Made by a program: the position numbers and the translations under genes. Under the pieces are notes generated by a model, which did no database searches, was not told the origin of the DNA, and saw only the letters and a list, made by a program, of their open reading frames with translations. Positions 22,431 to 55,561 of a DNA stretch of 64,000 bases are shown piece by piece. The stretch is from Polytrichum commune (Eukaryota; Streptophyta; Polytrichopsida; Polytrichales; Polytrichaceae). The first letter of the stretch is position 1. Each line of letters opens with the position of its first letter. Where the stretch lies: contig OX485804.1 of the NCBI GenBank assembly GCA_950295325.1, positions 19,654,001-19,718,000 on the forward strand, in the 5' to 3' direction.

Positions 22431-22463
22431 AACACTATATTCGTTAATCGGAGACTTTTGAAA
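22431..22463 (+). repeat. Left TIR of the inner element
   Basis: AACACTATATTCG followed by a GGAGACTTTT block. Matches the reverse complement of 49622-49654: 13 identical bases, then mostly identical to about base 30. Confidence 0.85.
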
Positions 22464-26287: not shown

Positions 26288-27540
26288 TTTACGAACGCGC
26301 GTTCGTGACCTCAGTAACTTCTCCATGTGCATCCGGCGGCCTTCGAGATCCCTCATCTGAGAGCACCCTCAGGAATATCGGTTTTGTAGGTCAAAGTACC
26401 ATGTTGACTTAGGAACCTGCGCGATATACTATCACAAGAGAACACTTGTCCATACGCACAAAAGTAGTAAATCTGCAGATGATGCCTGAATCAACTCCAA
26501 CAATATTTTGAACACTGAGCACCTCCATATTGTGAATTTGATTATGTTGACTTTTGCGTACCTACCCATTTACGAATGGACGTTCGTAAATGGGTGCGAC
26601 CCCGTGTTCACATCCTTCACGGACGAGCGATGAGCATATTTTTCTTGCTAATCTGTGTTCGTAAATTACTGCCATACTGATGTGCATGAATGAAGATGTG
26701 TTGCTGGATGCGTAGACAATAATGACATGTATTTACGAACGCACGTTCGTAAATTCCCGACCATCAGGTACCAATAGATACGGGTCAAATAAGTATGTAT
26801 GATCCTCGAAGGCATATTTACGAACGCACCTTCGTAAATGACTGTCATGGATTAAGTGCATGTCACTAACCATATGAGTACCTCAATCCAGAACATGCTC
26901 TCATGTGGGATTTACGAACGCATGTTCGTAAATTACCGACCATCAGGTACCAATAGACACGGGTCAAATATGTATGTATGAACCTCGAAGGCATATTTAC
27001 GAACGCACGTTCGTAAATAAATGCCATGGATGATGTGCATGTGACTATCCATGAGTAGCTCAATCCAAAACATGATTTCCTGTGGGATTTACGAACGCAC
27101 GTTCGTAAAATTACCGACCATCAGGTACCAATAGATACGGGTCAAATATGTATGTATGATCCTTGAAGGCATATTTACGAACGCACATTCGTAAATAATT
27201 GCCATGGATTATGTGCATGTGACTATCCATGAGTAGCTCAATCCAAAACATGCTCTCAGGTGGGATTTACGAACGCACGTTCGTAAATTACCGACCATCA
27301 GGTACCAATAGATAAGGATCAAATATATTTGCATGGTCCTCGAAGGCATATTTACGAACGTACGTTCGTAAATAACTGACATGGATTACGTGCATGTGAC
27401 TATCCATATGAGTAGCTCAATCCAGAACATGCTCTCATGTGGAATTTACGAACGCACGTTCGTAAATCCTTGCCATGTACATGTCCGAATCGTTTGTCTA
27501 AACCTGAAGCTCCTCATCTTTACGAACGTGCGTTCGTAAA
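26288..27540. repeat. Array of inner-element palindromes (about 12 copies)
   Basis: Copies of TTACGAACGNNCGTTCGTAA flanked by T..A at about 26288, 26569, 26732, 26817, 26911, 26996, 27088, 27174, 27266, 27351, 27445 and 27519. From 26.7 kb the spacing is 80-95 bp, with two palindromes per unit of about 177 bp. Spacers repeat as well (ACCATCAGGTACCAATAGA; CCTCGAAGGCATA). The centre is usually CA, and the flanking sequence is more variable than the arms. It lies upstream of the minus-strand putative transposase gene. Confidence 0.95.
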
Positions 27541-29133
27541 GTTCCGATATTTACGGCGGTATATGCGGTAGATACAGCCTGTACTGTACCTGGGTGGTGT
27601 AGGGTTGGCGCACACCAAATGGCTTGAGCGCGTTCGGTGAGGTCTGTAGAGCGCACACTTGCATGTGCCGCTGAAAAGACCTTTGTTGTGGGGGGAAGAG
27701 CTTTAAGTACTTCACCCCGCTGGTTCAAAATCCCTTGGATGCTCTTTAAAAAACGGATTCCCGCCGCCTTCTTTGACCTAACAATCTCCCATTCCATCCA
27801 TGCGGAATTATATAAATAGCACTGTCATGTATGGAACATGCCTTGCATGCACGCCAACATATTGAAAATATATATATCGGTTGCACACCTTAGTTGTGAC
27901 CAAGGTCTCATCAAAATATATGTATATACATATACATATATGTATATGTATATATGTATATATATATGTATATACATATATATATATATATATATACACA
28001 TAATGTCTAAATATGGAGATGGTTAACATTGAATATTTAATGATTTGCGACTAAGGTATGAAGTCCAAGTTAATTGACAATTGATGCCTAATAAAGTTAT
28101 GAATGTCGAAGTCATATATATATATATATACATATATACACATATACACACACACAATGAGGTCAGAGTGGCTAAGAACATGTTGCGGACACCCCTAAAA
28201 TTATAGGTATCATATGTTTCACATTAAAAAATGACCGTAATATGGTCACCAAGTGCATGAATACAACTAAAAAATCGGGTTAATCCATAATGGCTTGCAC
28301 TAGGGTAGATTGAGGACACTATGAACTAATTATACCTAATAATATATGTAAGTTAGGTCTTCTTTCAAATGATATCTAGGTGTGAAAATAAGGAATTAAA
28401 ATGGCATGAGTAAGAAGGATTAATCAATTTGTAATGCTGCATAGTATGATAGCGTAATGATCATTGAGACTTGAAACCATACTAGCTACCGTAACGTTGA
28501 ATCATAGTTACAATTATTATGTGTTTGACGTCCTATTGGAAATTGAATTTTCGTCCACTTGTTGTAAGGGTACGGATACACATTGGTTAAATGTTTATTA
28601 GATCATTGGTGATATTTATAGTTGAATGCATTATTCGATTGCTAGTTTAAGTTGACACATGATTAAATGAGTTGAGGTCCTATTGGAAATAGACTTTTAG
28701 GGTTTGGGGAAATGCACTATTAATTTGGAATGGTGCATACAATAGTATGTACTTACAATTAATATATGTTTTGCATCCTATGAGAAGGATGTGCATCATC
28801 ATAGCTTAAAGTGTTGATATAAATTGAAGTCTTAAGACATGCATGTTATTATAATAAGATCGTGGATTGTGTGATGAAATTTCACTCAGAACTATTAAGG
28901 TGAAAGAGGGAATATTTGAAATTTCACTTATCACCTAAACCAAAGTTTTATCTCAAATCTATTAATTTGGAATGTGAAAATGACAATTGGCATCATTATT
29001 AATTATTATAGTTGTTATGAACGGAACTAAGCATTCTCCATCCAACCAACATTGGTAGACCAATTTGACCTGCCCTCAGAAAACAACATGGCCACATATA
29101 AGAAAGGTTGGTAAGATAAAAAGATGCAGGGAT

Positions 29134-29213
29134 GTAGGGTTTAGGGTTTGCGGTTAGGGGTTTAGGGTTAGGGTTTGGGGGTAGGGTTTAGGGGTTTAGG
29201 GTTTGTGAAAGTT
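29134..29213 (+). repeat. Interstitial telomere-like repeats
   Basis: About ten degenerate units of TTTAGGG (variants TTAGGG, TTTGGGG, TTAGGGG) in 80 bp. This is the plant-type telomere repeat. It lies inside the inner element and is unrelated to a chromosome end here. Confidence 0.85.
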
Positions 29214-29989
29214 GTGTATGTGATATTTGGGTTTAGGTTTTAGATTGTTACTAGGATACATTACACACACAAACAATATTGATTCCTCAAAAACCCTTGT
29301 AATTGCACTAACTTCATTCATCGCAAGCTCGTAGTTGATGCTAGCAAAATAGTTGACCACTCCAGAAATGCATTAGTTCAAGCTAACACCTAATATTGGA
29401 ACTTGAATTGACATCCTATCGTATAGCAACTCTGCGCAATCTCATATTATTATGAATTCCTTTTTGCATGTAATATTTATTTGAGGAACCATCGAATTAA
29501 TTGAAAGATATCTAGCTCTTACATAAACTATATTTTAAAACACCATATACATATCTTTTGGGGGTGGATTCTACATTGACAACCTAGGAAATGACATGCA
29601 TTGTTTATTACGAATTAACTGAGTATATTTTTCTTAAATATGTTTACAAGGAATCCAAATGTAGAGGTACTAAGGAAATAAAACGAGTAAAATTCATGTA
29701 TTTGAACTAAGCTTTTCAAGTTAATGCCCTAAACGCATCCATTACATATAAATATGTCAAAGCATGAGAATAACATGAAGGGTTCCAATATACAACCATC
29801 TCCCATCTCCCATCGCATCCCATCCCATCCCATCCCTTCCCATCACCTCCCATACCATCCCATCCCATCTCCCTCCCAGCCCTAGCCAGTGGAGTTGTGC
29901 CACGTGGCAGGTGCTGGGAAACCCTAGCGGCGCACCTACCTCCCCGCGCCCCTTCCTCTTCTCCTCATTTGTCATTTCGAGGAGAGGAG

Positions 29990-30773
29990 GAGAGGAGGAG
30001 CGGAGCGCTTAGAGAGCGAAGCTCTTGCTTTTTTTAGTCTTGAAGTTTTAAATTAGTTTTGTTGCAAGTTTTGAGAGATTTCAGATTGAGAGCTTGTGTG
30101 AAAGCTTTTGAGTTTGTGAAAGCTTTCATTGTGAAAGCTTGTGAGTTTGTGAAAGCTTTCAGTGTGAGAGTTTGTGAGTTTCAAAAGCTTGAGAGCTTGA
30201 GTAGGAAAGCTTCAGAGTTTCGGATTGAGAGCTTGAGGGTGATCTTTAGAAGCTTCAGAGTTTAAGGAAGCTTCAGAGTTGAAGCTTGAGAGTTTATGGA
30301 AGCTTCAGAAGTGAAGCTTGAGAGTTTAGGGAAGCTTGAGAGTTAAGGGTTTGCTTAAGAGTTCAGAAGCTTGAGAGCTACAAGCTTCTGAGTTTTGTGT
30401 ACATGGGAGTATACTAGGGTTTGTATATAAGCTGTGAAGGCTTGAGGTCTGCATTAGAGAGTTATCTGAGTGTGCATTTGAAAGGCAATTGAGTGTGTAG
30501 TTGTGAGGATTTCTGGAATTTTCATAAAGAGAAGAAGCAGGGTTTGAAGTCTGCAGCATTTCAATGTAATTTGTTATCCTTTCCAACTCCTCTCACATTC
30601 TGAAAATGTTGCTTCTTGAATTCAATTTGTTTTGTTACATGCAATGTGAATTATCACTTTCTTCTTCATGTTTCATTCTGCATCTCATTCTGCATCTCAA
30701 TTGCTTTATGATTCAAGATTTGCATCATTCTGACCAAAATTTTGCAGGCACGGCTGCAAGCAGAGTAGCTAAT
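29990..30773 (+). promoter_or_regulatory. Possible 5' untranslated exon of the inner ParB/methyltransferase gene
   Basis: A sequence rich in AGCTT/GAGAG repeats ends in a donor-like AATAA|GTGAGT at 30773/30774. The next acceptor is the CTGTTGCAG immediately before the ATG at 31572. If used, a leader intron (30774-31571) would contain about ten palindromes, in keeping with the palindromes in the other introns of this gene. The transcription start is not determined. Confidence 0.3.
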
Positions 30774-30862
30774 AAGTGAGTTATATACATATATGTATAT
30801 ATACGTATTCATATATATATGAATACATATATGTACGGACAGGGGATCCCAAAACCATCACA

Positions 30863-31543
30863 TTTACGAACGCTCGTTTGTAAATGGACATACACTGCAT
30901 ACCCACCTCCATTTACGAACGCTCGTTCGTAAATGGACATACACTGCATACCCACCTCCATTTACGAACGCTCGTTCGTAAATGGACATACACTGCATAC
31001 CGAACCTCCATTTACGAACGTGCGTTCGTAAATACGCATTCCACGTTCTTTGAAATGATCTATATTTACGAACGCACGTTCGTAAATATACTCAAAATAT
31101 CACTCAGATGGAACCTTAACTTTAATATGAACCTCTACGAATATCTAAAGAACAAATATAAATTTGTGAACACCAATAAAACAAATCACATGTACTTACG
31201 AAAGATAAATCAACCAAATGTCCGACAAGATAGACCAAATGGACAAACTTACGAACGCACGTTCGTAAATAAAACCAAATCTATAAAACCTATATCTTTT
31301 ACGAACGATCGTTCGTAAAAATAACCAAATATATTACAAATACATTCATGACGAGTAGTCTCTTTGATCTTCATATCTTTTACGAACGCTCGTTCGTAAA
31401 CTCAATACTAAAAATTTATATGATCTTGCAACCCCTCATTTACGAACGAACGTTCGTAAATATAATTACATCAATTGCAAAGATGCATTAACACTGCGTA
31501 GTATGTGGGATATGCATGTCATTTACGAACGTTCGTTCGTAAA
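30863..31543. repeat. Second array of inner-element palindromes (about ten copies)
   Basis: Copies at about 30863, 30912, 30961, 31011, 31065, 31249, 31298, 31378, 31439 and 31522. The first four sit in a 49-50-bp tandem unit with the spacer GGACATACACTGCATAC. The array ends 28 bp before the start codon at 31572, so it occupies the promoter or leader intron. Confidence 0.95.
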
Positions 31544-31571
31544 GTCACTAATTGTTTATATTCTGTTGCAG

Positions 31572-34500
31572 ATGGCGAGATCAAGCAGAAGCGCCATTGA
31601 GATGTTCGCGGTGAAGGTCGATGGCGTCCCAGAGTCGGTGTTAGACGATAACGGCAACGACAACTATGTCCCCAAAGAAGACTTCATGGGGGAGTGGACG
31701 GCATTGCCAGAGAAGATCGGGGACGGCCTCTTCTGCATGCGCTTCACCTACGAGCTGGAGACAAGACCGGACCAGCCCGAACAGTGGGTTCAAATGAAGA
31801 CGTGGGAGATAAAGTCCATAGAGGCCCAGGGGGAGTATGTAATTATGGACATGAAGAACAAGAAGGATCATATCAACCTCTTGTTGCATTTCCAGAAAAA
31901 TACCTTCTCCTACCAATACGCCACCAATAACGTAGCGGAAGATGCCAAGCACTTCGACCTGGACGGCCTCTTCTCCAAATATGCGTTGAGCCCATACTGG
32001 ACGGCAAGGAAATTGACCGCCCTGGCATTGAACATCTCCAAATACAACAGTGTGGTCACTGAGGCAAACAAGAAGAAGAAGAGCCCCAGGAAACCATCCA
32101 CATCAGGGGCAGGAGGATCTAGAAGTGCACCCAGGCCTGTGCCTTCCGCTAGCAGAGCGACGGAGGGCCCCAGTAGACACTCCACGCCATCGAAGAGAAA
32201 AAAGGAGGAGATGGAGAAATCGGGAGTAACAGAGACCGCGGAGGTGACCTCGCCTGTCGTAATGCCCACCCCCTTGAAAAAGGGCGAGAACCCTGACGCT
32301 GTGAAGGCCACGAGGATCCTTCGAGACTTCAACAACTACTCGAAGGATTGCTGGCCCATGGGACGCCACTTCACATTCAACGTGGACTGCTTCAAGTGCG
32401 AGATGTCCCCCAACAAATGGGTGGTTCGCTCTCGCGAGAGCGGTGGTGTGAAGTGGCAGATAAATAATCTAATGAACAACGTGAAGTGGGACAGGCAGAC
32501 CGTCTGCGTCATGCCGAAGGGGCTGACATCCCGTCCGACGGAGAAGGACTGGCCACGGATCCAGAATGGAGAGTTCTGGATCATAGACGACCAACACAGC
32601 TTGGAGGCATCCCAGATAATCCTCAAGGATGACAACTTCCAGCATGAGCTGAAGGAGGACTTGCGCTACTGGAAGGCGTTCTTGGTGTGGTCGGACGATT
32701 GGGACAAGCTGCGGAAGATATCCACCTTCCTCAACTCCGGCAACAAGATCAAGGCCTTCGAGGCGTCGTGGGCAGCCAACATAGTGGCTGCAAGGGACGT
32801 CTGGGTCGCCCACGGGTGCCCCCCTAAAGAAAGGGAGAACGCGAAGACGCCGTCTCCACAATGGAAGGTGAGTTTACGAACGAACGTTCGTAAATATCTT
32901 TGACATTCAAATTTTCAAGTTCTTTGACATTCAAATTTACGAACGTGCGTTCGTATTTTGTGCGTTACTGATGCCTTTCTTGCTGTAGGCATTTTGCGAC
33001 GCGATGGTGGACAAGTTCTCCTCCATCGACATGAAGTCTACAACAACCAAGTCTATCCTGGAGCTCAAGGGTGAGCTCCGCCTCATCTGTTGCAACAGGG
33101 ACACTTGGGAGTTGTGGACACAATTTTTTGATGCGCACAGCTCGGGCGATCTGGTCAACCCCGACACCGAGGAGAAATACAGCGCGGAGAAGACCGGGGA
33201 GGCCCCTCCACTACTGAGGGAGTTCTTCAGGTCCCTTCAAGGGTTAACAGAGTCCGAGTTGCAGAGGTGCGCGGTGCATCTTCTTGGGAACACAGTGGGA
33301 AGAACCATCCCATACCCGAAGATATTTTTGAAGAGGCCAAGACACAAGCCCGGCACGTATTTCATCAAGGAATGGTGCGAACACCGCAAGCTGAAGACTG
33401 CTGCAATGAGGGAGTTGAGCGCCCTAATACCAGAGTACGCATTCATCCTAGCCGATGGGGACATTAATTGGGCCAGCTGGAAGATGTTCAAGGTCGACTA
33501 CAACATCTCCGGACCCTCAATGCGTTGTCTTGTCAAGGAGCACGCCTCCATTTTGAAGCAGAAGGGGAACAAGAGGACAAAGAAAACCGAGACGGATCCC
33601 CAGGAGGTGGAGCAATACAGAAGCTTTTTGGCGCGGAAGAGGTTGGCCACATTCGAAGGAGTGGCCAGATTTTGTTTGGTGACAACCGGAGTGGAGAGGG
33701 TCACATTTTCCAAGTGGGACCGGACCATGAGCAGGGCCGAGGTGAGGGAGGATCGACAGGGGTGCCCATTTGCCTTGATCGATTTCAGGGGGATCCCCGG
33801 TGCGTCGAGGCAGGGGGGGAAGGACATCCCTTTCTACGACCCCTTCATGGCCAAGTTCAGGGAGCACAAGTTTCCGGACATGAGGGAGCCTCACGTTTGG
33901 CTGTGGATAGTGGAGCAGGAGAAGTTGTCTGTCGTCACCGACCTGTACGAGAAGACGATCAAATTCGAGTACAACATCTTCCACAGCACTTACGTGCCCG
34001 CCAAGACGGAAGGGATCGTGGCCATCAACGAGGCCAGGGGGAACAAACAGGTGGGGGCGGTCAGCCTCGTCTTCTTGACGTACAACGCGCTTCGGAATGG
34101 GCGAGCCCCTGTCAGGGCGAATACTACGTTCAAGAAGATCTACAGCATCCCCCATCCCCCTCCCAAGGATCTGCTGCAGGAGACCTTGTACACTGTCTTC
34201 CCGGCGATGGAACTCAGGTTGGAGTTCTACGTCTCCGTTTTGCAGAGCGTGGCAATAAGCGGAGAGACCGTGTACAACGTTTGTGGAGGCAGCAAGTTCA
34301 TGTATGCTGCGATGGTAATATCTCCAACTAATATTTACGAACGCTCGTTCGTAAAGTTCACCTCAACTTGTCTTGGGTTTTGATGACATTGTTTCTCGTC
34401 GTTGATGTTTACGAACGCACGTTCGTATATTCTAACGTATTTGCTTGAATCTCAGATGTTGGGGCTGGTCGTCAACAGCTTCATTGAAGCCATCGACGAG

Positions 34501-35097
34501 GAGGACTTCCACGTGCACAGGGCGAAGGCCTCCACGATAGACCTGGAGGACATGTCCCTCCCGAGGACGGACATCAACATGCCCATCGACGAAGGCATGC
34601 CCGCCATGGAGACGGACGACGACGAGCCCGCGCCCTCCTACAACGTCGAGGCGATCCTTCGATCCTTGGACGTAACTCCTCTCCGCATTTTGGCGCCGTC
34701 GGGAAATCCATCCGACGTGCAAGGGACTCCGGGTGGATACACGGGGTCGTCGGCGGGGACAACCCAAGATGTCCTCCCCGCGAGAACGTCTGGAGCGGAG
34801 GCATTCGACACTCCCGGGGGATGCTCGACATCCGTGTCGCCCAGGCCGATCGTGGTTCCCAAGATGGAGAACCTCGACCTTCTGGACCAACGGTCCCGAC
34901 CGACGTTGGACCACTACCGCAACACGAGGCGGAGGATGAAGAAGACCCCCTACGTGGAGCTGCCTCCAGGGGCAATCATCGAGGTCTCCGATGAGGACGA
35001 GGGCGACATGGAGATCATGGTCGAGTTGGGGGTAGACTTTGACAAAAACAAGAGGGTCAAAGAGGAGGCGTTGTCCGTCGCCGAGCTTAACGCCAAG
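31572..35097 (+). CDS. Inner-element ParB-like/methyltransferase-like protein, exons 1-3a (interrupted by gypsy C)
   Basis: Exons 31572-32867, 32989-34314 and 34456-35097, all phase 0 with clear GTGAGT/GTAATA donors and CAG/TAG acceptors. The ATG directly follows an acceptor. Exon 1 (residues 1-432) has an N-terminal domain, a basic low-complexity linker (about 160-240; SKRKKEEME), then a ParB/sulfiredoxin-like region. In that region VKWQINNLMNNVKWDRQTVCV (about 292-312) and FWIIDDQHSLEA (about 335) correspond to VRPINELDVQRLENEF and VWEGNHRLTA of the outer gene. Exon 2 ends with a motif I-like ETVYNVCGGSKFMYAAM (about 860-874) that continues into exon 3 as MLGLVVNSF. A motif IV-like position, FALIDFRGIPG (about 693), lacks PPY, so the domain is likely non-catalytic. 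Exon 3a is acidic and Pro-rich. Both internal introns carry palindromes. Coding resumes in frame at 45973. Confidence 0.65.
32868..32988 (+). repeat. Intron 1 with two palindromes
   Basis: This 121-bp intron holds palindromes at 32873-32894, beginning 5 bp into the intron within the donor context, and at 32936-32957. Together they make up over a third of the intron. Confidence 0.85.
34315..34455 (+). repeat. Intron 2 with two palindromes
   Basis: This 141-bp intron has palindromes at 34334-34355 and 34408-34429, one 19 bp after the donor and one 26 bp before the acceptor, matching the arrangement in intron 1. Confidence 0.85.
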
Positions 35098-36927
35098 TGT
35101 GAGGCCAAACCCCCCACCCTTAAGCGTCCGTAGTCCGAGTAGTGGGTTTGGGCTCACATTCCTCCGCGGTATTGGATTTGGACTTGGATGAGTCCATAGT
35201 GCAAGGTTCACCCTTCAAGTGGTCTTGGATTTAACTTTGGTCTTTGCTTCCTTTGTCTTGCCATCGCGAGAGTGTTCCACATTCTCCATTAAGTTGTGCA
35301 CGTGGTTTATTTTTAAAGAGAGGATGCAAGTGTTAAAAAAAACACTATTCTCTATAGTCAATCTCAAATACATTTACTTGTGAAAGCCACACATAACACT
35401 AACTAGCATAATGTAACTAACTACTTGTCTATGAGCTAATTAGGTAGGCTATCTACTAAGCTCCTTCATGAACCCATCTCTTTACTTTCTAATTACATAA
35501 ACCTAGCTCCTTCATAAACCCAGCTCCTTCATAAACCCAGCTTCTTAGCTTCTAACTAAACAAACCCAGCTCCTTCATAAACCCAGCTCCTTCATGAACC
35601 CAGCTCCTTAGCTTCTAACTAAACAAACCCAGCTCCTTCATAAACCCAGCTCTTTACTTTCTAACTAAACAAACCCAGCTCCTTTATAAACCCAGCTCCT
35701 TCATGAACCCACAACTTTGTAGTTGTAATCCCCAACTACCTCACTAATTATTCAAGCCCTTAACTAATCTTCCTACCTAATTTCCCTAATTCTACTAACA
35801 ACCCCTTTCTAATCACACAATTCTTCTCTAATCCTAAAATCCTAAAATCCTAGAGAGGAGAGGGGGAGAGAGAATTTCCTAACTTCACTAAGACTAACTA
35901 ATCCACACAAGTATATTTTTGCACTCATCACAACATCAAGTGCTCAACTCTTAAATATGGAACTTGCAACCACGTGTATTCAAAACATGAACTTTAAGTA
36001 CCACAAATTGGAATCATGAATTAACTTTAAAATCCTTCACGTCAACACTAATTCTACCAAGAGGTCAAGCCCTCTTCAAGGCTAACAAGCCTTGGCTCTC
36101 AAACTAAAAACTAAGCACACACATGTGCTCCAATATGGCTTCCCACACCCACACTTATAACTCGTGGGGTGCCTTGGAGCACAAAGGAAAGAGAGGATGA
36201 GTGAGGGAAGAATGAGGGATTATATAGTAAGCTTGAGGGGGTGAGCACCCTCAAGGCTCACGATAAGCCCTTGAGATTTCCTCCTACTTAGTAGGCGCCA
36301 ATCCTATCTTCTAAGCCTTCCTCCCTCAAATGATCAACAAGGATCCTAATTCGAACATTTAACTAGCCTTGGCTTTCTACCTACCACACTTTACCAAACT
36401 TGGGATGCTTCAACCCAAACTTAGCCTCCTTCGCTTTCCGCCGCCATAACTTTCTCCCCTTACTTTCCCAAATCGTCGCTCACCACTTAATTCAAACCAC
36501 GATGCTTAACTCGTGATTTGATTGGTGCTTTGAGAATTTGCTTATCCTCCACCTTGCATTCTTCCTTGGGCCTTCCCCATTAAGTGGCCATGATGAGGTG
36601 GTCCACTTGTGCGCTCCATGTGATCCTCCATTCATCCCAATTCGAATGCACTTGCCTCTTGAGTCACTTTGGTTGTCTCCATCCATTTGTACTAGCCTAC
36701 TCACTAACTACTCAATCCAAGTTCTCCTTACCTATCCTCATTCACTCAAATCCTTCCGAAGGTAAAAACACAATAACAACTCACATCCTAGCCTCTTACA
36801 ACATGGTACTTCTAAGACTAACATTTCACTCTTTTTATATTTTTGTGAAGTAACATGCTACTTCAAAGTGCATCAACTAACGTTTCAAGGGTCTAAGACT
36901 AAATGTGGGCACCCTTTTGGGCTCACA
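35098..36927 (-). repeat. 3' LTR of gypsy C
   Basis: Long terminal repeat, nearly identical to 44139-45967. Contains an internal direct repeat of CCCAGCTCCTTCATAAA (about 35500-35720). Confidence 0.95.
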
Positions 36928-36988
36928 TAATTGGCGACCATCGGGGGATGAATCCAAACATCTCTTGCTCCAAGGGTAAGTTGCCTAG

Positions 36989-44116: not shown

Positions 44117-44134
44117 TCCCGGCAGACGCACCAA
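44117..44134 (-). promoter_or_regulatory. Primer-binding site of gypsy C
   Basis: On the minus strand, four bases after the 5' LTR, the sequence TGGTGCGTCTGCCGGGAG fits a site complementary to a tRNA 3' end (begins TGG, complement of CCA). The same motif is in gypsy A at about 16650-16667. The tRNA is not identified. Confidence 0.65.
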
Positions 44135-44138
44135 TTAT

Positions 44139-45967
44139 GTGAGGCCAAACCCCCCACCCTTAAGCGTCCGTAGTCTGAGTAGTGGGTTTGGGCTCACATT
44201 CCTCCGCGGTATTGGATTTGGACTTGGATGAGTCCATAGTGCAAGGTTCACCCTTCAAGTGGTCTTGGATTTAACTTTGGTCTTTGCTTCCTTTGTCTTG
44301 CCATCGCGAGAGTGTTCCACATTCTCCATTAAGTTGTGCACGTGGTTTATTTTTAAAGAGAGGATGCAAGTGTTAAAAAAAACACTATTCTCTATAGTCA
44401 ATCTCAAATACATTTACTTGTGAAAGCCACACATAACACTAACTAGCATAATGTAACTAACTACTTGTCTATGAGCTAATTAGGTAGGCTATCTACTAAG
44501 CTCCTTCATGAACCCATCTCTTTACTTTCTAATTACATAAACCTAGCTCCTTCATAAACCCAGCTCCTTCATAAACCCAGCTTCTTAGCTTCTAACTAAA
44601 CAAACCCAGCTCCTTCATAAACCCAGCTCCTTCATGAACCCAGCTCCTTAGCTTCTAACTAAACAAACCCAGCTCCTTCATAAACCCAGCTCTTTACTTT
44701 CTAACTAAACAAACCCAGCTCCTTTATAAACCCAGCTCCTTCATGAACCCACAACTTTGTAGTTGTAATCCCCAACTACCTCACTAATTATTCAAGCCCT
44801 TAACTAATCTTCCTACCTAATTTCCCTAATTCTACTAACAACCCCTTTCTAATCACACAATTCTTCTCTAATCCTAAAATCCTAAAATCCTAGAGAGGAG
44901 AGGGGGAGAGAGAATTTCCTAACTTCACTAAGACTAACTAATCCACACAAGTATATTTTTGCACTCATCACAACATCAAGTGCTCAACTCTTAAATATGG
45001 AACTTGCAACCACGTGTATTCAAAACATGAACTTTAAGTACCACAAATTGGAATCATGAATTAACTTTAAAATCCTTCACGTCAACACTAATTCTACCAA
45101 GAGGTCAAGCCCTCTTCAAGGCTAACAAGCCTTGGCTCTCAAACTAAAAACTAAGCACACACATGTGCTCCAATATGGCTTCCCACACCCACACTTATAA
45201 CTCGTGGGGTGCCTTGGAGCACAAAGGAAAGAGAGGATGAGTGAGGGAAGAATGAGGGATTATATAGTAAGCTTGAGGGGGTGAGCACCCTCAAGGCTCA
45301 CGATAAGCCCTTGAGATTTCCTCCTACTTAGTAGGCGCCAATCCTATCTTCTAAGCCTTCCTCCCTCAAATGATCAACAAGGATCCTAATTCGAACATTT
45401 AACTAGCCTTGGCTTTCTACCTACCACACTTTACCAAACTTGGGATGCTTCAACCCAAACTTAGCCTCCTTCGCTTTCCGCCGCCATAACTTTCTCCCCT
45501 TACTTTCCCAAATCGTCGCTCACCACTTAATTCAAACCACGATGCTTAACTCGTGATTTGATTGGTGCTTTGAGAATTTGCTTATCCTCCACCTTGCATT
45601 CTTCCTTGGGCCTTCCCCATTAAGTGGCCATGATGAGGTGGTCCACTTGTGCGCTCCATGTGATCCTCCATTCATCCCAATTCGAATGCACTTGCCTCTT
45701 GAGTCACTTTGGTTGTCTCCATCCATTTGTACTAGCCTACTCACTAACTACTCAATCCAAGTTCTCCTTACCTATCCTCATTCACTCAAATCCTTCCGAA
45801 GGTAAAAACACAATAACAACTCACATCCTAGCCTCTTACAACATGGTACTTCTAAGACTAACATTTCACTCTTTTTATATTTTTGTGAAGTAACATGCTA
45901 CTTCAAAGTGCATCAACTAACGTTTCAAGGGTCTAAGACTAAATGTGGGCACCCTTTTGGGCTCACA
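44139..45967 (-). repeat. 5' LTR of gypsy C
   Basis: Long terminal repeat, 1,829 bp, nearly identical to 35098-36927. It should hold the element's promoter; I did not identify a TATA box. Confidence 0.95.
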
Positions 45968-45972
45968 CCAAG

Positions 45973-48150
45973 CTCGAGCAAAAAATGAAGGAGGACATGG
46001 CGAAGGCGGCAGAGGAGAATGCCAAGAAAATGTTCGCAATTCAGGAGGAGCTGAGGCAGTCCAACGAGAAGACGGACGCCATCCTCGCCATGCTCCAGCG
46101 TATGCAGAGCTTCTCGGCGCCCCCCCAGCCGGCCTACCCCTTCCCTGGAGGATACCCCTCCCAATCCCCTCCACCAGGCATGTTCACCGGAGGGCCTTCC
46201 CGCCAGCAGGCGCCCCACCCTACGCCTGTTGGCACCCCTCCACCCCCAGAGGTTCCCTCGACCACCTCCCACGATGCTGTGGCTGCGGCCATCCAGGAGG
46301 ACGAGGATTTACGAACGCGCGTTCGTGAATCTTCAGGTCCTCCAGTCCTCACCCCTCCCCCTTCAAGGGTAGGACTGCCATCATACACCGATGCGTCGTC
46401 TTTCACCGTCGTCCCCAGGGTAGTAGACAGACATGGCGATGACTCTGCGCGACACACTGACATGGTCATTGTGGAGGACACGCAGGGGAGCCCCAATGAC
46501 GCACCAGGGGTGCAAGGGATGGACGTGGAAGAAACCCATGCGGCGTGGATGGAGGATGTCAGGATGGACGCGCTCGACCTGGGCGCCGAGGAAGAAAACG
46601 CGCTGCGCATCCAGGCGACACAGGCATCTCAACCGGAGCGTGAGGCAGAGGCCATGGAGACAGAGGCGGCTGCAGCTGTGGAGGTTACGAACGCGCGTTC
46701 GTTAATCGTTGAGGATGGACCTGCTGCTCGGTCCAGCGCCGCTGCCCCTCCCCCCGATGACGAGGTAACTCTCCTCTGAGAATACCATTTTTTTACGAAC
46801 GCGCGTTCGTAACCTCTCTAACATCGCGATGTTTTTCTCTTCATCGACATCCAGTGGCCTTGCGAGAGCCCTCTTCAGCGGTCCCCCTTAGGGTCGAACA
46901 GTTTTGTAGGACACGGCATTATTTTGCCTTAGGAAAATGTGATAGACTATCACGTGAGAAATGTAAATATTCAACGGATTAATATATGAGCCTATGTTAT
47001 CTGCATCGCGTTGCTTCAAATTCTCTGCCCTCAACCCCTTCTCGTATATTGTATATGTTGATGCGATTATGTTCATTCTTGCATACCCACCTCATTCGCG
47101 AACGCTCGTTCGTGAAAGGGTGCGACCCACTGTCCACCTCATTCGCGAACGACCGCTCGTAAATGTACGTGTAGCCGCGCTTACGAACGAGCGCTCGTAA
47201 ATGATGCGCACCGCCCCCGCAACCTTCATTCACGAACGCTCGTTCGCAAGTGTGCCCTTGAGCACATTTTCCTTGCACTCTCCTCACTTCCTCGTCTTTC
47301 CCCATAATGCACCGTCTTCATTTTCTACGCAAAATTTCATTATTGGATCATAGAATTAAACTAGTCGAGTTGTTCATCACAGGACCCCCTGGAGATAGGT
47401 CGCAACCCCTCGACCAGTGGACCTCCCACCCGGCACAAACCTTTCATCGTTTTTGACCTCAACGGGGTGTTGTGTCACACCCAACACATCCCAAGGGTCC
47501 CCACGCGTCCCTTTCGTCACCCCGACGAAAGGGACTACGACGGCGAGCTCGACACCCTCATTAACCGCAAGGCTGTCCGCGCCCGTCCCGGCTTGCGTGA
47601 CTTCCTTCGCGAGGTGGTCGAGTTCGCTCACGTCATTGTGTGGAGCTCCATGGTCATGGAGAACACGGAGCCCATCGTCCACTTCTTGTTCCGCGATCTC
47701 CCGAGCCCGTGCCTCGTCCTCGGCCAAGAGGACTACGACGAGCTGCTCGACGAGAAAGGTCAACCGGTGCCCAAGTTTGGCGGTCGGGGCGGAGGACAAC
47801 AGTTCCTCAAGGTCCTCCGCTCGAGACTCTGGCGAGGCGTCCCCCGTCTGCAAGGGACGCCGCACGGGTGGTGGCCGACTCCAGAGAACACCGTCCTCAT
47901 CGACGACAGCCCCACCAAGAGCGTCTTGAACCCCCCGGGAAACGTCATCTTCCCGGACACTTGGACCGGCGATAGGCAAGACACATTTTTGGTCGATAGG
48001 CTAGCCCCCTACCTTAGAAGGCTCGTGCTCCACGCCGGTAGCATCCCATTTTTTGTTAGGTCCAACCCCTTCGGCAATGCGGCACTTAGCCCCCGCGATA
48101 ATGTATTCAAGAGCATCATGAGGCTCGCCAAACTCAATAAATTGATTTGA
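45973..48150 (+). CDS. Inner-element gene, exons 3b-4: coiled coil and HAD/FCP1-like phosphatase domain
   Basis: After the second CCAAG the frame of exon 3 continues to 46764, with a charged coiled coil (EDMAKAAEENAKKMFAIQEE) and then a Pro-rich and acidic region. A donor (GAG|GTAACT) and the acceptor at 47381-47382 join it in phase 0 to 47383-48150. Exon 4 is a HAD phosphatase of the plant FCP1/NIF-like type: FIVFDLNGVLCHT (motif 1, about residue 1377), HVIVWSSM (motif 2), NTVLIDDSPTKSVLNPP (motif 3) and a conserved NPFG near the end. The motif-1 Dx[DN] pair is DLN, as in many plant members. The whole model has 1,608 codons in one frame. An alternative ending is a stop at 46779 if the intron is not spliced; the HAD part could then be a separate gene lacking its own start. 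Confidence 0.6.
46308..47250. repeat. Dispersed inner-element palindromes in exon 3b and intron 3
   Basis: Copies at 46308-46329 and 46685-46703 lie inside open reading frame, in two different frames (read as LRTRVRE and VTNARSL). Further copies in the intron are at 46792-46812, 47094-47116, 47142-47163, about 47180-47202 and about 47228-47250. These are often GC-rich variants (TTCGCGAACG.., ..GCTCGTAAAT), unlike the upstream arrays. Confidence 0.85.
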
Positions 48151-48261
48151 AATGCCTCCTTGTCTTTGCTTGTATCATGTGGTTCACATTTACTAATGCT
48201 TGCTTCGTTTTTGGATGTCTTTTGTTGTTGTGATTGTTGTTGTTCTTGTTCTTGCCCATAG

Positions 48262-49262
48262 TCTGCCCCCATATGCGACGCCCCTGTGGTCGACGTCCCT
48301 TCCCGTCCCCTCTCGCCCCCTGCCTCCCCTTCCCGCGACGTCACGGACTTCCAAATGCCATCCCTCTACCAGTTCTCGGCGGTGGACGCGGCCTCGGCCG
48401 TGGATTACTCCCGCGACATCGGCATTGACGACGGCGTCGTCAACAGCCCGCCCCCCGCACTTGTCGCCCACGCCTACGCCCCGTCGCCCTCCCCCCTCTC
48501 CAAGGAGAAACGGACGCTCGTTCGTTTGGGGCACCTCTCGCCCTCTAAGGACGACGCCGTCGCTCGTCGCGGGCCAAGCCGCCGGCGTCTCCGCATGGAA
48601 GGCCCCCGTTGCCACACCTCCCCCGCCGATTCCGTTCCTCCCCCCGCAACGTCCTCCGCCATCGTGAGCCCTCCACGCCTCGACTCCCCCCCACCACTCA
48701 CCAATACAATAGTTCCATCGGCTCCGGATGCTACCGTCGACGCCCCCCTCGTTCCCACCGTTCCCCGCATGGACGTCCCCAAAGCCAAGGTGCCCTCCTC
48801 AACCCTAAACCCCTTTCCCGCTTTTGCTTCCCTTGTCTTCCGTTTGCGTGCCGTTCTCTTTACGAGCGCCCATCCCAAACCGCCCTCATTATTTTCCCCA
48901 CTCCATTCCTATTCTTATCTTCCTATGACGTTGTTTCGCAGGTGCCTACCCGCTCGCTTGGTGCCCGGCCCTCCTCCACGTCCTCCTTGGATAGGCACGC
49001 CCTCAAGGCCGCATCTTCCGAGTCCGATCGTTGTCTGGCCCTCCGGAGAAGCGCAAGACGTTCCCTTTCGCAAACACCCTCGTATTCTACTTATAATACC
49101 ACCTCTTACAATTCGGGAGCGCGTCCTGAAACATGCAAGAACGACACATATTCCTGTCCAGGCAACACACAAGGATGCAGTCGTGGGCCTGAGATTTTTA
49201 GAGCCATGGAGGCCGCCAAAAAAAAGGACTTAGCCGCAAAAAAAAATAGTGGGTCGCACTAG
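48262..49262 (+). CDS. Pro/Ser-rich coding region of unknown function
   Basis: Two exons, 48262-48789 and 48942-49262 (stop), both phase 0 with AG acceptors and a GTGCCC donor. The first has no start codon, so it depends on an upstream exon, perhaps an alternative splice from the HAD exon. The product is Pro-, Ser- and Arg-rich (SPPASPSRDVTDF, ARRGPSRRRLRME) without a recognised domain. It is more GC-rich than its surroundings, as are the HAD exon and exon 3b. A palindrome variant, ACGGACGCTCGTTCGT, is embedded in frame near 48511. The right TIR of the inner element follows about 390 bp after the stop. Confidence 0.4.
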
Positions 49263-49621
49263 TGTGACGTCTAGAAGCATACTAGTGGGACGGACTCCCT
49301 AAATGGGCTTAGGTGTAGAACATATTTAAGTGCTTACTTTCTATGCTATTCCAAGTTACTCAAGACATTGATGGTATTTCCATTATAATTGTATTTCAAT
49401 CCCAATTAATTCATTCAACTTCCATTCATTCTTCGCATCTTCCTTTCCATTCATAACGAGTTGTCATTTCATACGCAACTATTCTCATGTATGCCTCACA
49501 TTTTTGTTCACTTCCATGCCTTTATGTATAATAATAGTAGCATACCATTATACATATGGGATTTTTAGTCGTCATTACTGATCCAATTTTGAAATGTGCA
49601 TCCTTATATAGTCTCATAATC

Positions 49622-49654
49622 AACAAAAAGTCTCCAAATACCGAATATAGTGTT
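49622..49654 (-). repeat. Right TIR of the inner element
   Basis: Reads AACACTATATTCG on the minus strand from 49654 and matches 22431-22463. Outside it is the TSD AGAT (49655-49658). The stretch 49263-49621 holds no gene that I can see. Confidence 0.85.
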
Positions 49655-49741
49655 AGATGAGGAAATTGGAGGTGAGTTAGCAAAATCGAGAAGAAATCAC
49701 GAAGGACAAATCGAAGGAGAAGAGAAGATGAAGAGGAGCAC

Positions 49742-51129
49742 CTCATCAAAGAAGGCGTCGGTATTCTCGGAGTTGGCAACGGCCACATACTTCTCGAAGC
49801 TCTTGGAGCGAATGGACTTTCTGGCCTTCTCCTCAGCAAGTGTCATGGCCCCCCAAACACCGAGAGCGGTCCTCTGATCGGCCGGAGTCTCATCCTTGTA
49901 AGCTCTAGCTGCAGCGTCGGAGGCGGCGGAGATCTCTCTCTGGTTGCAAGCAAAGGTAAGCCAACGAAGAAGATGGAAATTGAAAGGAGAGAAATCAAAG
50001 TGTGGGGAAGTGATTACCTTGTAGAGAAAGGAGACGAAGACGTCGATGGTCAAGGGGTACCAAGTGTTGTGCTTCCTCTTGGCATTGATACAAGCCAAGT
50101 AGTCCTCCTTGGAAATGAGGTCCTTGAAGTCCTCCAACTCCAAGGTCCCAAAGTAGCGGATGCAGTGAAGCTTGGAGGGGAGGCTGGACTTGACGTGGTC
50201 GTTCTTGATAGACCTACAAAAAATTGAAGAAGACAAGATGAGAAGACACTCACAAACAAAGAATGAAGTAGCAAAGAATAGAGAGAGACATACCGATTCA
50301 CGTCGTTCATGGCATTCATGAGAACGCCACTATGCTTCCACGAATCCAAGGCAATACAATAGGGAGAGATATGCCACGCCTCTTCCGTAGGATGGAACCT
50401 GTTCATGTGGCGCCACCAAGCGGTCAACCGGTGGTTCCCCTCCCACACGTAGAACATCTTGCCCACAAAGTAGACAAGATCGGGGTCGGCGGCCATCCGT
50501 GCATCGAATCTTTCACTCTCAAGCTTCCACAACGGACTCTAGGTGGACGAGATGTCCTCCGTGACCTCCAAGATGTCGTCCTTGTTGTTGTAGATGGAAA
50601 CATAGAGAACACGGTCACCATCTCGGTACCCCGTAACGAATTCGTTCTCCAACCTCTGGACATCCAACTCGTTGATGGGCCGAACGAGTGGCAAATCCCG
50701 CAAGCAGCAGAAGGGGATGCAAAGTCGAGACTTCTCAAGAGGCTGAATGCGGAGGCGATTGATGACTGCCGTCAAATCTTGTTTCTGCTTCACTCAAAGA
50801 TTGACCTCACTCTCCTCGGGGTTAGCCGACTTGGGAGGTTCCTCGGGAAGTCTAGAGGGAGTCTACAAACATCCGATTCAATTTAGTACACACGAGAATA
50901 ACTCAACCACCGACTCTAAAGGAGGGCAGGTGCAAGAACGGAAGACATAAGTGTCTAAATCAACTACCTCCTGCATGTCGGTGTTCACCCGGTCAACTTG
51001 CTCGAGTTGTTCTGGAACAACCTCCTCAATATCCTCCAGCTCTTCGACGTTGTTCAAGTCCACAGCATCCTCCGCTTGCTCCTCCTCCACAGAGGGCTCC
51101 AAGACCACAAGATCATCGGAGAGATCCAT
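49742..51129 (-). pseudogene. 5' part of the outer element's ParB-like/methyltransferase-like gene (exons 1-4)
   Basis: Minus-strand exons 50968-51129 (ATG at 51129), 50294-50862, 50018-50213 and 49742-49939, with consistent phases (0, 2, 0, 0). Exon 1 is acidic (VEELEDIEEVVPEQLEQ). Exon 2 carries a ParB-like region: LVRPINELDVQRLENEF with GDRVLYVSIYNN, then YVWEGNHRLTAWWRHM, comparable to the 'G-x-H-R-x-x-A' signature of ParB/sulfiredoxin-fold domains. Exons 3-4 look helical (KDETPADQRTALGVWGAMT). Two in-frame stops interrupt exon 2, TGA at 50794-50796 and TAG at 50539-50541, with homologous-looking sequence in the same frame around both. The next exon is at 22424, across the inner element. 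ParB-like plus N4/N6 methylase fusions are known in phage and prophage modification genes; finding one here is unexpected. Confidence 0.65.
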
Positions 51130-51231
51130 TCCCTCCAACTCCTACATAGAGAGAAACAAATGGCATTAACAAAATGAAAGACTAATGAGATGAAGCAGCA
51201 AAGAAACTGTGAAAATTTGACCATATCTCTT

Positions 51232-51953
51232 AATCCCACGGATCCGTGGGATTGGAGCAAACTGTCCACGAAGCCGCAACCGAGGTGCCTGACAAGTGAA
51301 AATCTGCCGGGTGGGGGGCGTCCTCCCTCACTAACTAAACTTCAATTGGTCACCCCTTACCTCCATTTCTCAGATGACTTGATCACAAGTGGTGTGTAAA
51401 ACACCTTTTCTTTATTGATTTTCACTTTCTAAAGAGCATTTACAAATGCTTTGCTCATACATAGAGTTCGTTTTTTGCATCCCTATCTTTAATACTACTA
51501 TTACATCAGTCCCTTCAACTGTGTAAACACTTGTCAATCCCACGGATCCGTGGGATTGATGAATGTTAGCTCCGATGTAAAAATTTATGCACATGCATCA
51601 ATCCCACGGATCCGTGAAATTGGTGAATGTCGGTATCGTTGCTCAACTGCGTAAACACTTGCCAATCCCAAGGATCCGTGGGATTGATGAATGTCGGCAT
51701 CGTTGCTCAACTGCGCAAACACTTGCCAATCCCACGGATCCATGGGATTGATGAATGTTAGCTCCGATGTAAAAATGTATGCACATGCATCAATCCCACG
51801 GATCCGTGGGATTGGTGAATGTCGGCATCGTTGCTCAACTGCGTAAACATTTGCCAATCCCACGGATCCGTGGGATTGATGAATGTTAGCTCCGATGTAA
51901 AAATGTATGCACATGCATCAATCCCAAAGATCCGTGGGATTGATGAATATCGG
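51232..51953. repeat. Outer-element palindrome array, first half
   Basis: Eight copies of ATCCCACGGATCCGTGGGAT (plus A..T outside) at about 51232, 51538, 51599, 51663, 51727, 51791, 51857 and 51919. From 51.54 kb the spacing is about 64 bp. Alternating spacers (GATGAATGTTAGCTCCGATG and GTGAATGTCGGCATCGTTGC) give a unit of about 128 bp with two palindromes. A few copies have single changes in one arm. It lies just upstream of the ParB/methyltransferase-like gene start (51129). Open frames through it are repeat artefacts. Confidence 0.95.
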
Positions 51954-54900
51954 TGTGGTACTTTTGGGCCACCCCCTTTCGAAGAAGTCTAAAAGTATCA
52001 CACAAGCCCTTCGGTGAAGGTGGCCTGCATTTGCAGGCGCCCAAGCCGAACCCGGATGATAGGTGTATAACGTGAGTAGTTAGATTTTTAAGGGAGATTA
52101 AATATGCGTCGTAGTACCTCCGGAGGTTGGGCCTTAGTTTTTTACTAGTGTGGCTTTAAACTCCACTAACCAATTTCATATCTAGTTCTAACTTTAACCT
52201 ACAACCTATTCTACGCGCAGACGCACCAGCCTTGAAACCAAGGCAATCCTAATTTGTGAATTGGCATGGTTCTGATACATCCAACCGGATGTGACTCATA
52301 CCACCCTAACTCAACGAACGGAATAACGACAATTTGATGGACCATTCAATTCTTCCTATTTCTTTATTTAGTTCTATTTAGTTTTCTAAGTGGGAAAACT
52401 TGGCCTAAGTCCCACCCTTCACACAAATTCCTTCTTAATTACTTACTTTTGTTTGCACGTCCTAACTCACTACATTAACATATTAGGCATCACCCCTTAC
52501 CTGGTTGGTGCACCCCTTACCTCGGAACCTTCTAAGGCCTCGTGCAGGTCCTTTGAAGGTCGAGTAACATCTCAAACCCTTCGGACATCAATGGTTCGAA
52601 GGGTGGTGTCACTCTACCGAGTTAAGTTTCCGATTCGGGTCTCTTGCCAACAAGGGTTTACGATTTATTTTGTATGTTTTGATTATTAAATGTGTTTACA
52701 CTGGATAGACCACGAAATGCAACTCAATGGGACCAAGGTGACGGGTAACCTGTACGTTCAACCTGTTGCGCAATCTTCATAAATTGGGGCCATTACTCCC
52801 AATCTATGGGGCCAACAACATAATAGTGGATTCGCAGGTCATTAACCCCACCTTTCCACCAACAACATTCAGAGTGGTCGTGTCGGTGATTAATCCGACT
52901 TACCACACACGAAACTTGCTAATAAATGAAGCTACTACCACAAAACATACCAAGGGCCCCGAAAACAATGGAGTTGGATATTCCTTTGGCGGTCAAGTGG
53001 TCAAGCCACTTGACCTTACGAAATAGGTGAGTGGGTTTATAGATGCGTACCTTAGCTGCGCTCCCTCCAACCTTAAATGGAAGGCTAGCGTTAGTAAATT
53101 TACCTCAATTCTCCTCGGTTGATTTGGGCTCGATGTAGGCCGAGCCGCTACCTCCTTCCTTGCTCCATTTCCCGAGCGTCGATCTTGCCTCCTTCTTTGT
53201 AACTAGTTTGGTAGTAAGCGCACCTTAGTTAACAATTAAAATATAAAATATTTATTCTGCATTGTAATTTAATCCTAAGCATAATATTTATACTTAGTGC
53301 ACCTAATTATCTTTCCAATGATCTAAAAATCACTTAAATCGGATAAGAATTGCAAAAGTTATGAGGGTTGGAAGTGTGAGGTCGATTCAACCGACCCTTC
53401 CAACCCACCTATCTACCTTCTAACTTCAAAAATTCATAGCACATTCCTTACTACTTGGATCTAGGCTTTCCTTATACCATTGGACAGCTATGAACAAGCT
53501 CTAACTAGAAAAATTATGACATCAGCAGGTTAAGCTAATAAAAATTCAGCAGACTCCTTGTAACACAACAGTCAATTAAAAAGGCTTAAACTATGTATCT
53601 CGCCTTCAACAATTCATATCTAATTCAAATCTTATTCAAATCAAACGTTCTATATGACCCTGGAGAGATATTAAAAATATGTATTTGATAAAAATATGTG
53701 ATTAGAAAGGTAAGCCGAAGTGAACCCAGCAGATCCTCTGTAATGAAGCAGTCAACCAAAAGTTCTCAAACTATGTGTCCCATCTTGCACAATTCATATC
53801 TAATTCAAATCATGCTCAAATCAAATGTTCTAAGCCATTTTGGAAAGCTACACAAAAGTTATACTTGGGAAAAATATAACTTCTTGGAATTAAAATTCCT
53901 ATTGGGCTCGCAGGTCTGATCCAGCAGCCGCTACCCACAAGACCACCTAGTTTTTTCTACTCCATCTTTGGAAATCCATAACTAATTGTCATCTTAACCA
54001 AATTACAAATGGGAAATAGCTATGGATAGCTATATGAAATCTCTCTAAGAGAAAAATGATAAGTATCTTGTTCTAGCTTCTGAACTAAGCTTTCAGGACA
54101 TTGGCAGATGAGGTCTACAATGCCTCCACTCAAAACTCTACCATCCAACCTACCTCTACAAAAGAAGGAATAATTTTGTTGGTGTGTTAATAAACACACA
54201 TTCTAACTAGGAGAGAGAGTAGAGGAGGTTCTCAAGCCTTTCTTTTAGGCCATTGAGAATGCATGCTAAAGGATTTTTTCCTAACTACATTGAAGCAGGG
54301 CTTCGCCCAAGCATTAGAAGAAGAGAGAGACCTACAAGGTGGAAGGAGGGATTTTTAAACCCTCTCACAAAAGGGTCGGACCCCTCCTCCACCGGATCCA
54401 TTTTTCAAACCCTTTCCCGAAATTTTGGCTCGGGGGTTTTTCCCGGTTGAGGTTGTCACCCTCTCGCCGAGGTGGCTCCGACGGGGAACCTAGAAATCTT
54501 TCTAATTTTTCCGCCATCGAGTTGGCAAGGGGACAAGTGGGCAAGTAACCCCCTTGCTCTCTTTCTTTTTTGTCTTCAAAAGTCTTCAAGCCGATTTTGT
54601 TTTCTTACGTAAAACACCTCCAATAGTCTTGTCTGCCTCACCCTAACTAATAAACTAACATTTGCTTAGCTAGCATTTACTAACATTTGCTTAATAGCTA
54701 GCATTTACTAATATTTGCTTAATAGCTAGCATCTACTAATATTTGCTTAGCTAGCATCTACTAACATTTGCTTAATAGCTAGCATCTACTAATATTTGCT
54801 TAGCTAGTTGCTTTTACTAGCTAGCATATTTTTTCTACTTTGGTATCTTCTAGCACTACTTAGTTTCATTTTGACCTTCCTTCTTCTAGGCTAAATGCTA

Positions 54901-55004
54901 AATGAACTAATTTTCCCTAAATTCCCTATCAATTCTAACTTTTAATGCTAACATTCTAACTAAAAGTGATCCCGCAGAGTGGTGGACCACTCAAAGGGTT
55001 CACA
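51954..55004 (-). mobile_element. Family-B LTR-like element, copy B1 (3,051 bp)
   Basis: On the minus strand it starts TGTGAACCC at 55004 and ends GTACCACA at 51954; TSD is ATCGG (51949-51953, 55005-55009). No protein domain. Internal features: GCTAGC-rich direct repeats (54650-54820), two or three diverged blocks of about 180 bp (53550-53850), and a primer-binding-like TGGTGCGTCTGCGCG (52214-52228, minus strand). TG..CA ends with a 5-bp TSD fit a solo LTR or a small non-autonomous LTR element. It splits the palindrome array in two. Confidence 0.85.
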
Positions 55005-55561
55005 ATCGGCATAGTTGTTCAACTGCGTAAACACTTGCCAATCCCACGGATCCGTGGGATTGATGAATGTTAGCTCCGATGTAAAAATGTAAACACTTGC
55101 ATCAATCCCACGGATCCGTGGAATTGGTGAATGTCGGCATCGTTGCTCAACTGCGTAAACACTTGCCAATCCCACGGATCCGTGGGATTGATGAATGTTA
55201 GCTCCGATGTAAAAATGTATGCACATGCATCAATCCCACGGATCCGTGGGATTGGTGAATGTCGGCATCGTTGCTCAACTGCGTAAACACTTGCCAATCC
55301 CACGGATCCGTTGGATTGATGAATGTTAGCTCTGATGTAAAAATGTAAACACTTGCCAATCCCACGGATCCGTTGGATTGATGAATGTTAGCTCCGATGT
55401 AAAAATGTATGCACATGCATCAATCCCACAGATCCGTGGGATTGATGAATGTCGGTATCGTTGCTTGATGTGTTAGGAAAAAATTAATCTGACGAATCGG
55501 GAGTAAATTGTTGTTCCCAACAAGAAATACATTATCCAATCCCACGGATCTGTGGGATTGG
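55005..55561. repeat. Outer-element palindrome array, second half
   Basis: Same palindrome and spacers as 51232-51953, with about eight copies at about 55038, 55102, 55167, 55231, 55296, 55360, 55424 and 55538. It was continuous with the first half before B1 inserted. Confidence 0.95.

Follow-up and report, generated by a model that had tools for sequence, protein, structure and literature searches.

We analyze a 64,000-nucleotide stretch of the Polytrichum commune genome (GenBank assembly GCA_950295325.1, contig OX485804.1, positions 19,654,001 to 19,718,000; hereafter, “the window”) in which one transposon is nested in another: the inner element lies within the gene of the outer element that encodes a ParB-type domain and a methyltransferase (MTase) fold (hereafter, the “ParB-MTase gene”). 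The inner element has a ParB-MTase gene of its own, and each element carries its own palindrome, TTACGAACGNNCGTTCGTAA in the inner (palindrome 1) and ATCCCACGGATCCGTGGGAT in the outer (palindrome 2). We lean toward the view that these palindromes are lineage-specific sites for the ParB-MTase protein of the element that carries them, serving self-recognition and probably anti-silencing. An earlier reading of the letters alone (“the sequence-only reading”) had proposed cognate sites of ParB-like proteins, analogous to parS or to the motifs of VANC, and this proposal is now supported by the ParB/Noc fold predicted for exon A of the inner gene, by the change of the palindrome with the protein clade, and by the placement of sites in introns and upstream regions. 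Binding by the ParB-MTase protein, reading of the site by a dimer, and the anti-silencing effect are what we infer.

Palindrome sites in the nested elements

At a threshold of ≤ 3 mismatches, palindrome 1 has 33 sites in the window (19 of them exact), all between 26289 and 47249, against 0.01 in shuffles, and palindrome 2 has 16 sites, all between 51233 and 55558, against 0 in shuffles. The sequence-only reading had counted about 35 and about 16 copies and had confined the first to 22431-49654 and the second to the outer element; both confinements are borne out, as are the CpG that it noted in both palindromes and the GGATCC at the centre of palindrome 2. Only 0-2 centre bases of the palindromes are unpaired. 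The features that locate the sites are the following, with exon and intron borders deduced from splice-like signals together with homology.

22431..49654: inner element; ends AACACTATATTCG / CGAATATAGTGTT (inverted), AGAT at both flanks; interrupts the ParB-MTase gene of the outer element
26289..27539: palindrome-1 array upstream of the transposase-like gene, 12 sites; in part a 179-bp repeat that contains two of them per unit
30864..31542: palindrome-1 array, 10 sites, the last one in the 5' leader; upstream of the ParB-MTase gene
31572..32867, plus strand: exon A; beta-rich N-terminal domain and ParB-fold domain; IIDDQHS here, IIDGQHS in most relatives
32868..32988, plus strand: intron 1 (inferred); palindromes at 32874 and 32937
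32989..34314, plus strand: exon B; N6-adenine-methyltransferase fold; DFR at the expected motif IV (by eye), motif-I-like NVCGGSKF at the end
34315..34455, plus strand: intron 2 (inferred); palindromes at 34335 and 34409
34456..35097, plus strand: exon C, first part; interrupted by a Ty3-like element, joins 45968-46764 uninterrupted in other copies
45968..46764, plus strand: exon C, second part; in-frame palindromes at 46309 and 46685
46793..47249: five more palindrome-1 sites, of which four have 1-3 mismatches, inside the intron inferred ahead of the phosphatase exon
47383..48150, plus strand: NIF-type phosphatase exon (PF03031, E 4.2e-16)
51233..51940: palindrome-2 sites 1-8; spacing 64 bp from 51537 onward
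55041..55558: palindrome-2 sites 9-16 (match search at ≤ 3 mismatches)

We take exons A, B and C and the phosphatase exon to be one gene, because they follow one another on the same strand and exon C is unbroken in copies without the retrotransposon. Arrays do stand upstream of element genes, as had been claimed, but the inner sites also extend into the ParB-MTase gene itself: introns 1 and 2 have two each, the 5' leader has one immediately ahead of the ATG, a later exon has two that are in frame, and the intron after that exon has five. The further claim of two palindromes per repeat unit describes the 179-bp inner array and fits the 128-bp period of the outer one, which also reads as one palindrome per 64 bp, and it fails for the second inner array, with one per 49-bp unit.

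When the 33 inner sites are compared, each arm position carries 1.4-2 bits of information; the centre pair carries little, and a few bases beyond the palindrome the value is about 0, so the conserved thing is the palindrome and not the repeat unit. Most of the 16 outer sites belong to a 64-bp tandem array in which the entire unit is alike, which makes the outer set the weaker evidence; its two arrays are a single one, split by an insertion resembling a solo long terminal repeat (LTR) at 51954-55004.

Sites and proteins across the host genome

The host genome (407.8 Mb in 64 contigs) holds 3737 exact copies of palindrome 1, against 0 for a reversed-pattern control. The sequence-only reading had suggested setting such a count against the copies of the element, and all 100 sites that we examined individually (the 100 listed of the 3737, all on contig C1 below 2.55 Mb) fall in inner-type element DNA. 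Ninety-eight form five clusters that have tblastn matches to proteins of the inner element; at the first cluster (C1 0.64 Mb) these matches are two partial ones at 63% and 70% identity. The other two sites are in inner-element-like DNA (L071, 87% over ~1 kb, and L072, 68% over 562 bp). Palindrome 1 is a property of the element type, not of the window copy alone. Among viral contigs, four have one site each, which by our estimate is about chance for a sequence of its length. We also note a diverged inner-type element (L013/L014, C1:632001-652000) with 31 exact palindrome-1 sites, many ~34 bp apart.

From 1089 first-look candidates, 97 relatives of exon A were scored in the genome at 86-100% identity, and the best 30 of the search (98-100% identical) all carry sites at near-identical places. 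In intron 1 of six copies (the window, L016, L064, L065, L066 and L068), the arm columns of both sites are identical in 510/510 pairwise comparisons, compared with 44/60 for the centre bases and 561/1007 (56%) for the ungapped spacer. As the arms are kept while the spacers have diverged, our reading of this pattern is purifying selection on the palindrome over a drifting background.

Relatives of exon A form two clades, one 64-94% identical to the window (clade 1) and one 42-46% identical (clade 2), and the palindrome differs between them. Clade-1 arms read TTACGAA. Predicted clade-2 proteins that run into the intron spell TDARP / YGRASV where those of clade 1 spell TNARS / YERSFV, and back-translation gives TTACGGACGNNCGTCCGTAA; the metagenome supplied six such clade-2 proteins, of which P0018, P0019, P0021 and P0022 are readable, P0020 is without the tail and P0023 has an uninformative frame. 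Clade 2 is also abundant in the host genome, with 95 scored matches of 1063 candidates at 77-97% identity to P0018. At the diagnostic pair, clade 1 has A-T in 256/256 sites (30 loci), and the five copies 87-88% identical to the window (L064, L065, L066, L067 and L068) keep A-T. Clade 2, sampled in seven short stretches from four copies, has 14 G-C, 2 A-C, 1 G-T and 0 A-T among 17 otherwise exact sites; L069, of this clade, has G-C. What matters in this comparison is the joint alteration of both arms at dispersed places. Separately, one clade-2 palindrome in the upstream array of L062 is enclosed in a perfect inverted repeat of 56 bp, at 345-400.

These observations bear on two explanations that involve no dedicated DNA reader. 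The first is that the palindromes act as RNA hairpins in the control of splicing or processing, as several sites a few bases past inferred 5' splice sites might suggest. We find this very improbable: the same palindrome fills intergenic arrays and occurs in a coding exon, and pairing alone would permit many compensated sequences per lineage, whereas clade 1 has a single type throughout. The second is that a palindrome arisen by chance was passively multiplied in tandem and evolved in concert, with no protein reading it, and the uniform 64-bp units of the outer array are of the kind that this predicts. We give it hardly any credence, since the inner sites share little beyond the palindrome and are dispersed over introns and an exon, since 14/17 clade-2 sites are symmetric after the change, and since the intron-1 spacers of the inner type, which we checked for conservation, are less conserved than the arms.

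More distant relatives carry other palindromes. L023 (C1:2473001-2483000) matches the window at 40% in the second half of exon A and 22% in the first half, at 43% over 111 residues of exon B and at 42% in the phosphatase. It has no palindrome-1 site even at 3 mismatches, and it has 12 sites of TTTGGGTCGNNCGACCCAAA at ≤ 1 mismatch, distributed over the upstream region, the leader that precedes the ATG, the stretch ahead of exon B, and exon B itself, where they are in frame; the tail of P0192 (37% identical in exon B) is consistent with the same palindrome. For the outer type, a relative at C1:2248001-2265000 (ParB exon 55% and five other exons 40-64% identical) carries the palindrome AGGCCTCGGATCCGAGGCCT, with the same core as the outer element of the window and different arms: between its ParB-MTase gene and an open frame of 766 residues in divergent orientation it has 36 CGGATCCG cores, of which 32 are flanked on both sides by AGGCCT, compared with the arms ATCCCA / TGGGAT around CGGATCCG in the window. 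By sequence, then, the core in these pairs is common within a type (CGNNCG inner; CGGATCCG outer) and the arms differ. A further palindrome, CCCACGGGTGAACACCCGTGGG / CTCACGGGTGAACACCCGTGAG, occurs within the outer-type array at L017 8634-8655 and 9028-9049 and is possibly another site family.

Predicted folds of the ParB-MTase proteins

The AlphaFold2 model of exon A has a mean predicted local distance difference test score (pLDDT) of 72 and a predicted template modeling score (pTM) of 0.47, and a Foldseek search with it places ParB/Noc structures at ranks 1-12 of 345 PDB matches (E 5.3e-3 to 0.29, best probability 1.0). For exon B (pLDDT 78, pTM 0.63), CcrM, MTA1 and MboII are in ranks 1-5 (best E 1.3e-2, probability 0.94-0.99), with METTL3 further down. 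Pfam and PDB sequence searches with the two exons gave nothing significant, and no relative of exon A was found among viral contigs. Residues ~10-110 of exon A (window 31572-31900) form a well-predicted beta-rich domain, and in P0018, one of the relatives, a YEATS match falls below the threshold (E 0.019), possibly a chromatin reader. The phosphatase is an odd component of a transposon: this NIF-type exon, apparently the last one of the inner ParB-MTase gene, is kept at 42% identity in L023.

The outer ParB-MTase gene has exons on either side of the inner element.

49742..50778, minus strand: outer ParB-type exons, VWEGNHRLTAWW; initial half of the gene, containing one stop
20110..22430, minus strand: outer methyltransferase exons; remaining half of the gene, as far as the inner insertion; DVPDNPP, MDWQCGTG / ASITACRMAERHIVALERD

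By eye, VWEGNHRLTAWW is ParB-like, and it is largely invariant over 21 aligned relatives; the methyltransferase exons match PF01555 at E 8e-4 (below the cut-off) and DpnA at E 9e-4. The sequence-only reading had named a ParB-like protein in each element, which the fold model of exon A upholds for the inner one; for the outer one the likeness is that of the VWEGNHR motif, by eye. Inner and outer ParB-MTase proteins are likened by fold or motif, not by direct sequence similarity.

Neither protein has a DPPY-type motif IV where one is expected. The inner protein has an invariant DFR instead (31 aligned sequences) and the outer one DVPDNPP, both places assigned by eye. With DFR invariant at this position, the MTase fold of the inner protein seems to be kept and the canonical catalytic motif not. 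The exon B fold resembles CcrM, MboII, MTA1 and METTL3, and the position of motif IV precedes motif I (by eye); it differs from them in its DFR and in the linked ParB domain. METTL14 and MTA9 are non-catalytic partners, and by analogy the inner MTase domain may be an inactive DNA-binding scaffold.

The same motifs weigh on the possibility that the sites are methylation targets, at which the MTase-fold protein deposits N6-methyladenine (at GATC in the outer core) or a CpG mark (in both) and so protects or labels the element. The nearest folds (CcrM, MTA1 and MboII for exon B, with DpnA near the outer exons) are what one would expect in that case, and the cores contain CG or GATC. We nevertheless judge it quite unlikely: DPPY is replaced in both proteins, and the inner arms are conserved along with the core, which is more than a methylation target requires.

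Candidate function, known systems and further features

The ParB-MTase protein is the best candidate for the binder, because it is present in both element types and its clade predicts the site, and because L017, the section of the outer-type relative that contains its other gene, gave no match to the inner transposase-like proteins. The element genes other than the ParB-MTase genes are as follows.

22950..24425, minus strand: transposase-like gene (name inferred) of the inner element; DUF7869 domain (PF25273, E 1.7e-39)
24691..26232, minus strand: upstream open frame of the transposase-like gene; adjoins DUF7869 in copies at C1 2.23, 2.27 and 2.54 Mb
57523..58192, plus strand: first part of the other gene of the outer element; L017 has related open frames (31% and 50%)

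The palindromes could instead be sites of the transposase-like protein, in a transposition complex or in autoregulation, with the ParB-MTase gene following by linkage. The transposase-like genes adjoin the arrays, and covariation alone is silent on which protein binds, the clades compared being those of the ParB-MTase protein. We consider this unlikely, as the sites lie inside the element, 3.9 kb (first site) and 2.4 kb (last site) away from its ends, and as some of them occupy introns and one coding exon within the ParB-MTase gene, unlike subterminal transposase repeats. Subterminal transposase sites as such were rejected on position.

Under the interpretation that we prefer, each element would encode one large protein with a ParB-type domain and an MTase fold lacking the canonical catalytic motif, and the palindrome would be the private binding site of that element lineage. 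A dimer would read two lineage-specific arms around a fixed core (CGNNCG inner, CGGATCCG outer); such a dimeric DNA reader would explain the conserved arms, the free inner centre, the constant spacing and the symmetric changes. Through the sites concentrated between the two divergent genes, joined in the inner type by intronic ones, the protein would be loaded onto copies of its own lineage, where it would keep the element transcribable by preventing or removing silencing. A more specific version, which we entertain only tentatively, is ParB-parS-like self-marking in eukaryotic DNA transposons: a ParB clamp joined to a pseudo-methyltransferase would load at private palindromes, spread and exclude the silencing machinery, with the arms as the address and the core (CGNNCG or CGGATCCG) as the common lock, and new lineages would arise by joint change of arm and protein.

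Several observations count against our interpretation. The leader site of L061 (clade 2) is A-T with one mismatch, the intron site of L070 (clade 2, 82%) is A-T with two mismatches and a changed splice donor, and 3/17 clade-2 sites are only half-changed. The 30 clade-1 loci are near-identical (98-100%), so that the copies are related and the 256 sites are not independent events. Both Foldseek searches, with exon A and with exon B, returned no match at E ≤ 1e-3. Exon A of L023 contains stops; the outer-type comparison covers two elements, and the DVPDNPP exon has no meaningful match in the second of them (C1:2248001-2265000). Finally, the site follows the whole element lineage, and another element protein could be the binder.

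The closest parallel in layout is the VANC system of Arabidopsis VANDAL elements, which, according to PMC5735166, removes DNA methylation from the element and has its motif, in the case of VANC21, in introns and upstream regions. That system shares with our elements a transposon-encoded protein and a short, dense, element-specific motif, often in tandem, in introns and upstream, as well as motifs that differ between related elements, with co-evolution of protein and motif being reported there (PMC5735166). By analogy, anti-silencing is the most likely purpose of the sites, because the similar VANDAL layout removes DNA methylation. Our elements likewise pair a transposon-encoded protein with lineage-specific arrays in non-coding parts, with two inner sites in a coding exon. 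What sets them apart is that the motif is a palindrome of 20-24 bp whose core is fixed and whose arms vary, that the protein has ParB and MTase folds, and that the neighbouring gene in the inner element has DUF7869; homology of the inner protein to VANC is unlikely because of its ParB fold.

With ParB-parS/Noc the elements share a ParB-fold protein and many palindromic sites near its gene. They differ in being eukaryotic transposons, in the dense clustering of the sites and in the adjoining MTase fold and phosphatase domain. The bacterial ParB box is GERR. At its likely place, judged by eye, there is no CTP-binding GERR-type box: inner relatives read IIDGQHS and outer ones VWEGNHR. Fungal DNA transposons of several lineages carry TET/JBP and are alike in combining DNA transposons of several lineages with a DNA-modification-type protein, which is a dioxygenase there and a ParB-MTase here (PMC12730594). 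Literature searches found no paper joining DUF7869 to transposition, none on an N6-adenine MTase with ParB in eukaryotic or algal transposons, and unrelated work only on ParB, liverwort and transposable element together; at the level of titles and the start of abstracts, no such system was listed beyond the VANC work.

If our interpretation is true, these two kinds of element contain a self-recognition or anti-silencing system that is VANC-like in logic but has a ParB fold and a pseudo-methyltransferase as its parts. A single genome contains at least two clades of the inner protein whose sites differ; these would be ready protein-site pairs for studying change of DNA specificity, and the proteins would be a possible source of 20-bp palindrome readers for chromatin targeting.

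Three insertions in the window are outside this system or break its parts.

35098..45967, minus strand: Ty3-like LTR retrotransposon (class by eye); splits inner exon C; LTRs 99.9% identical, duplication CCAAG; outside the system
51954..55004: solo-LTR-like insertion; duplication ATCGG; breaks the outer palindrome array in two
58193-61031: second solo-LTR-like insertion; duplication CACTC; interrupts the other gene of the outer element

For that other gene, we considered the name MULE-like and do not use it; its L017 relative has no Pfam match above the cut-off. Rfam and tRNA scans of the window gave no match. The two solo-LTR-like insertions are in opposite orientation and 93-97% alike, and related sequence also occurs at 11109-11710, adjoining a second Ty3-like element. 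Outside both elements, a 30-bp palindrome, GACTTATTGACTAACCTTAGTCAATAAGTC, has two copies 52 bp apart, at 5507-5536 and 5559-5588.

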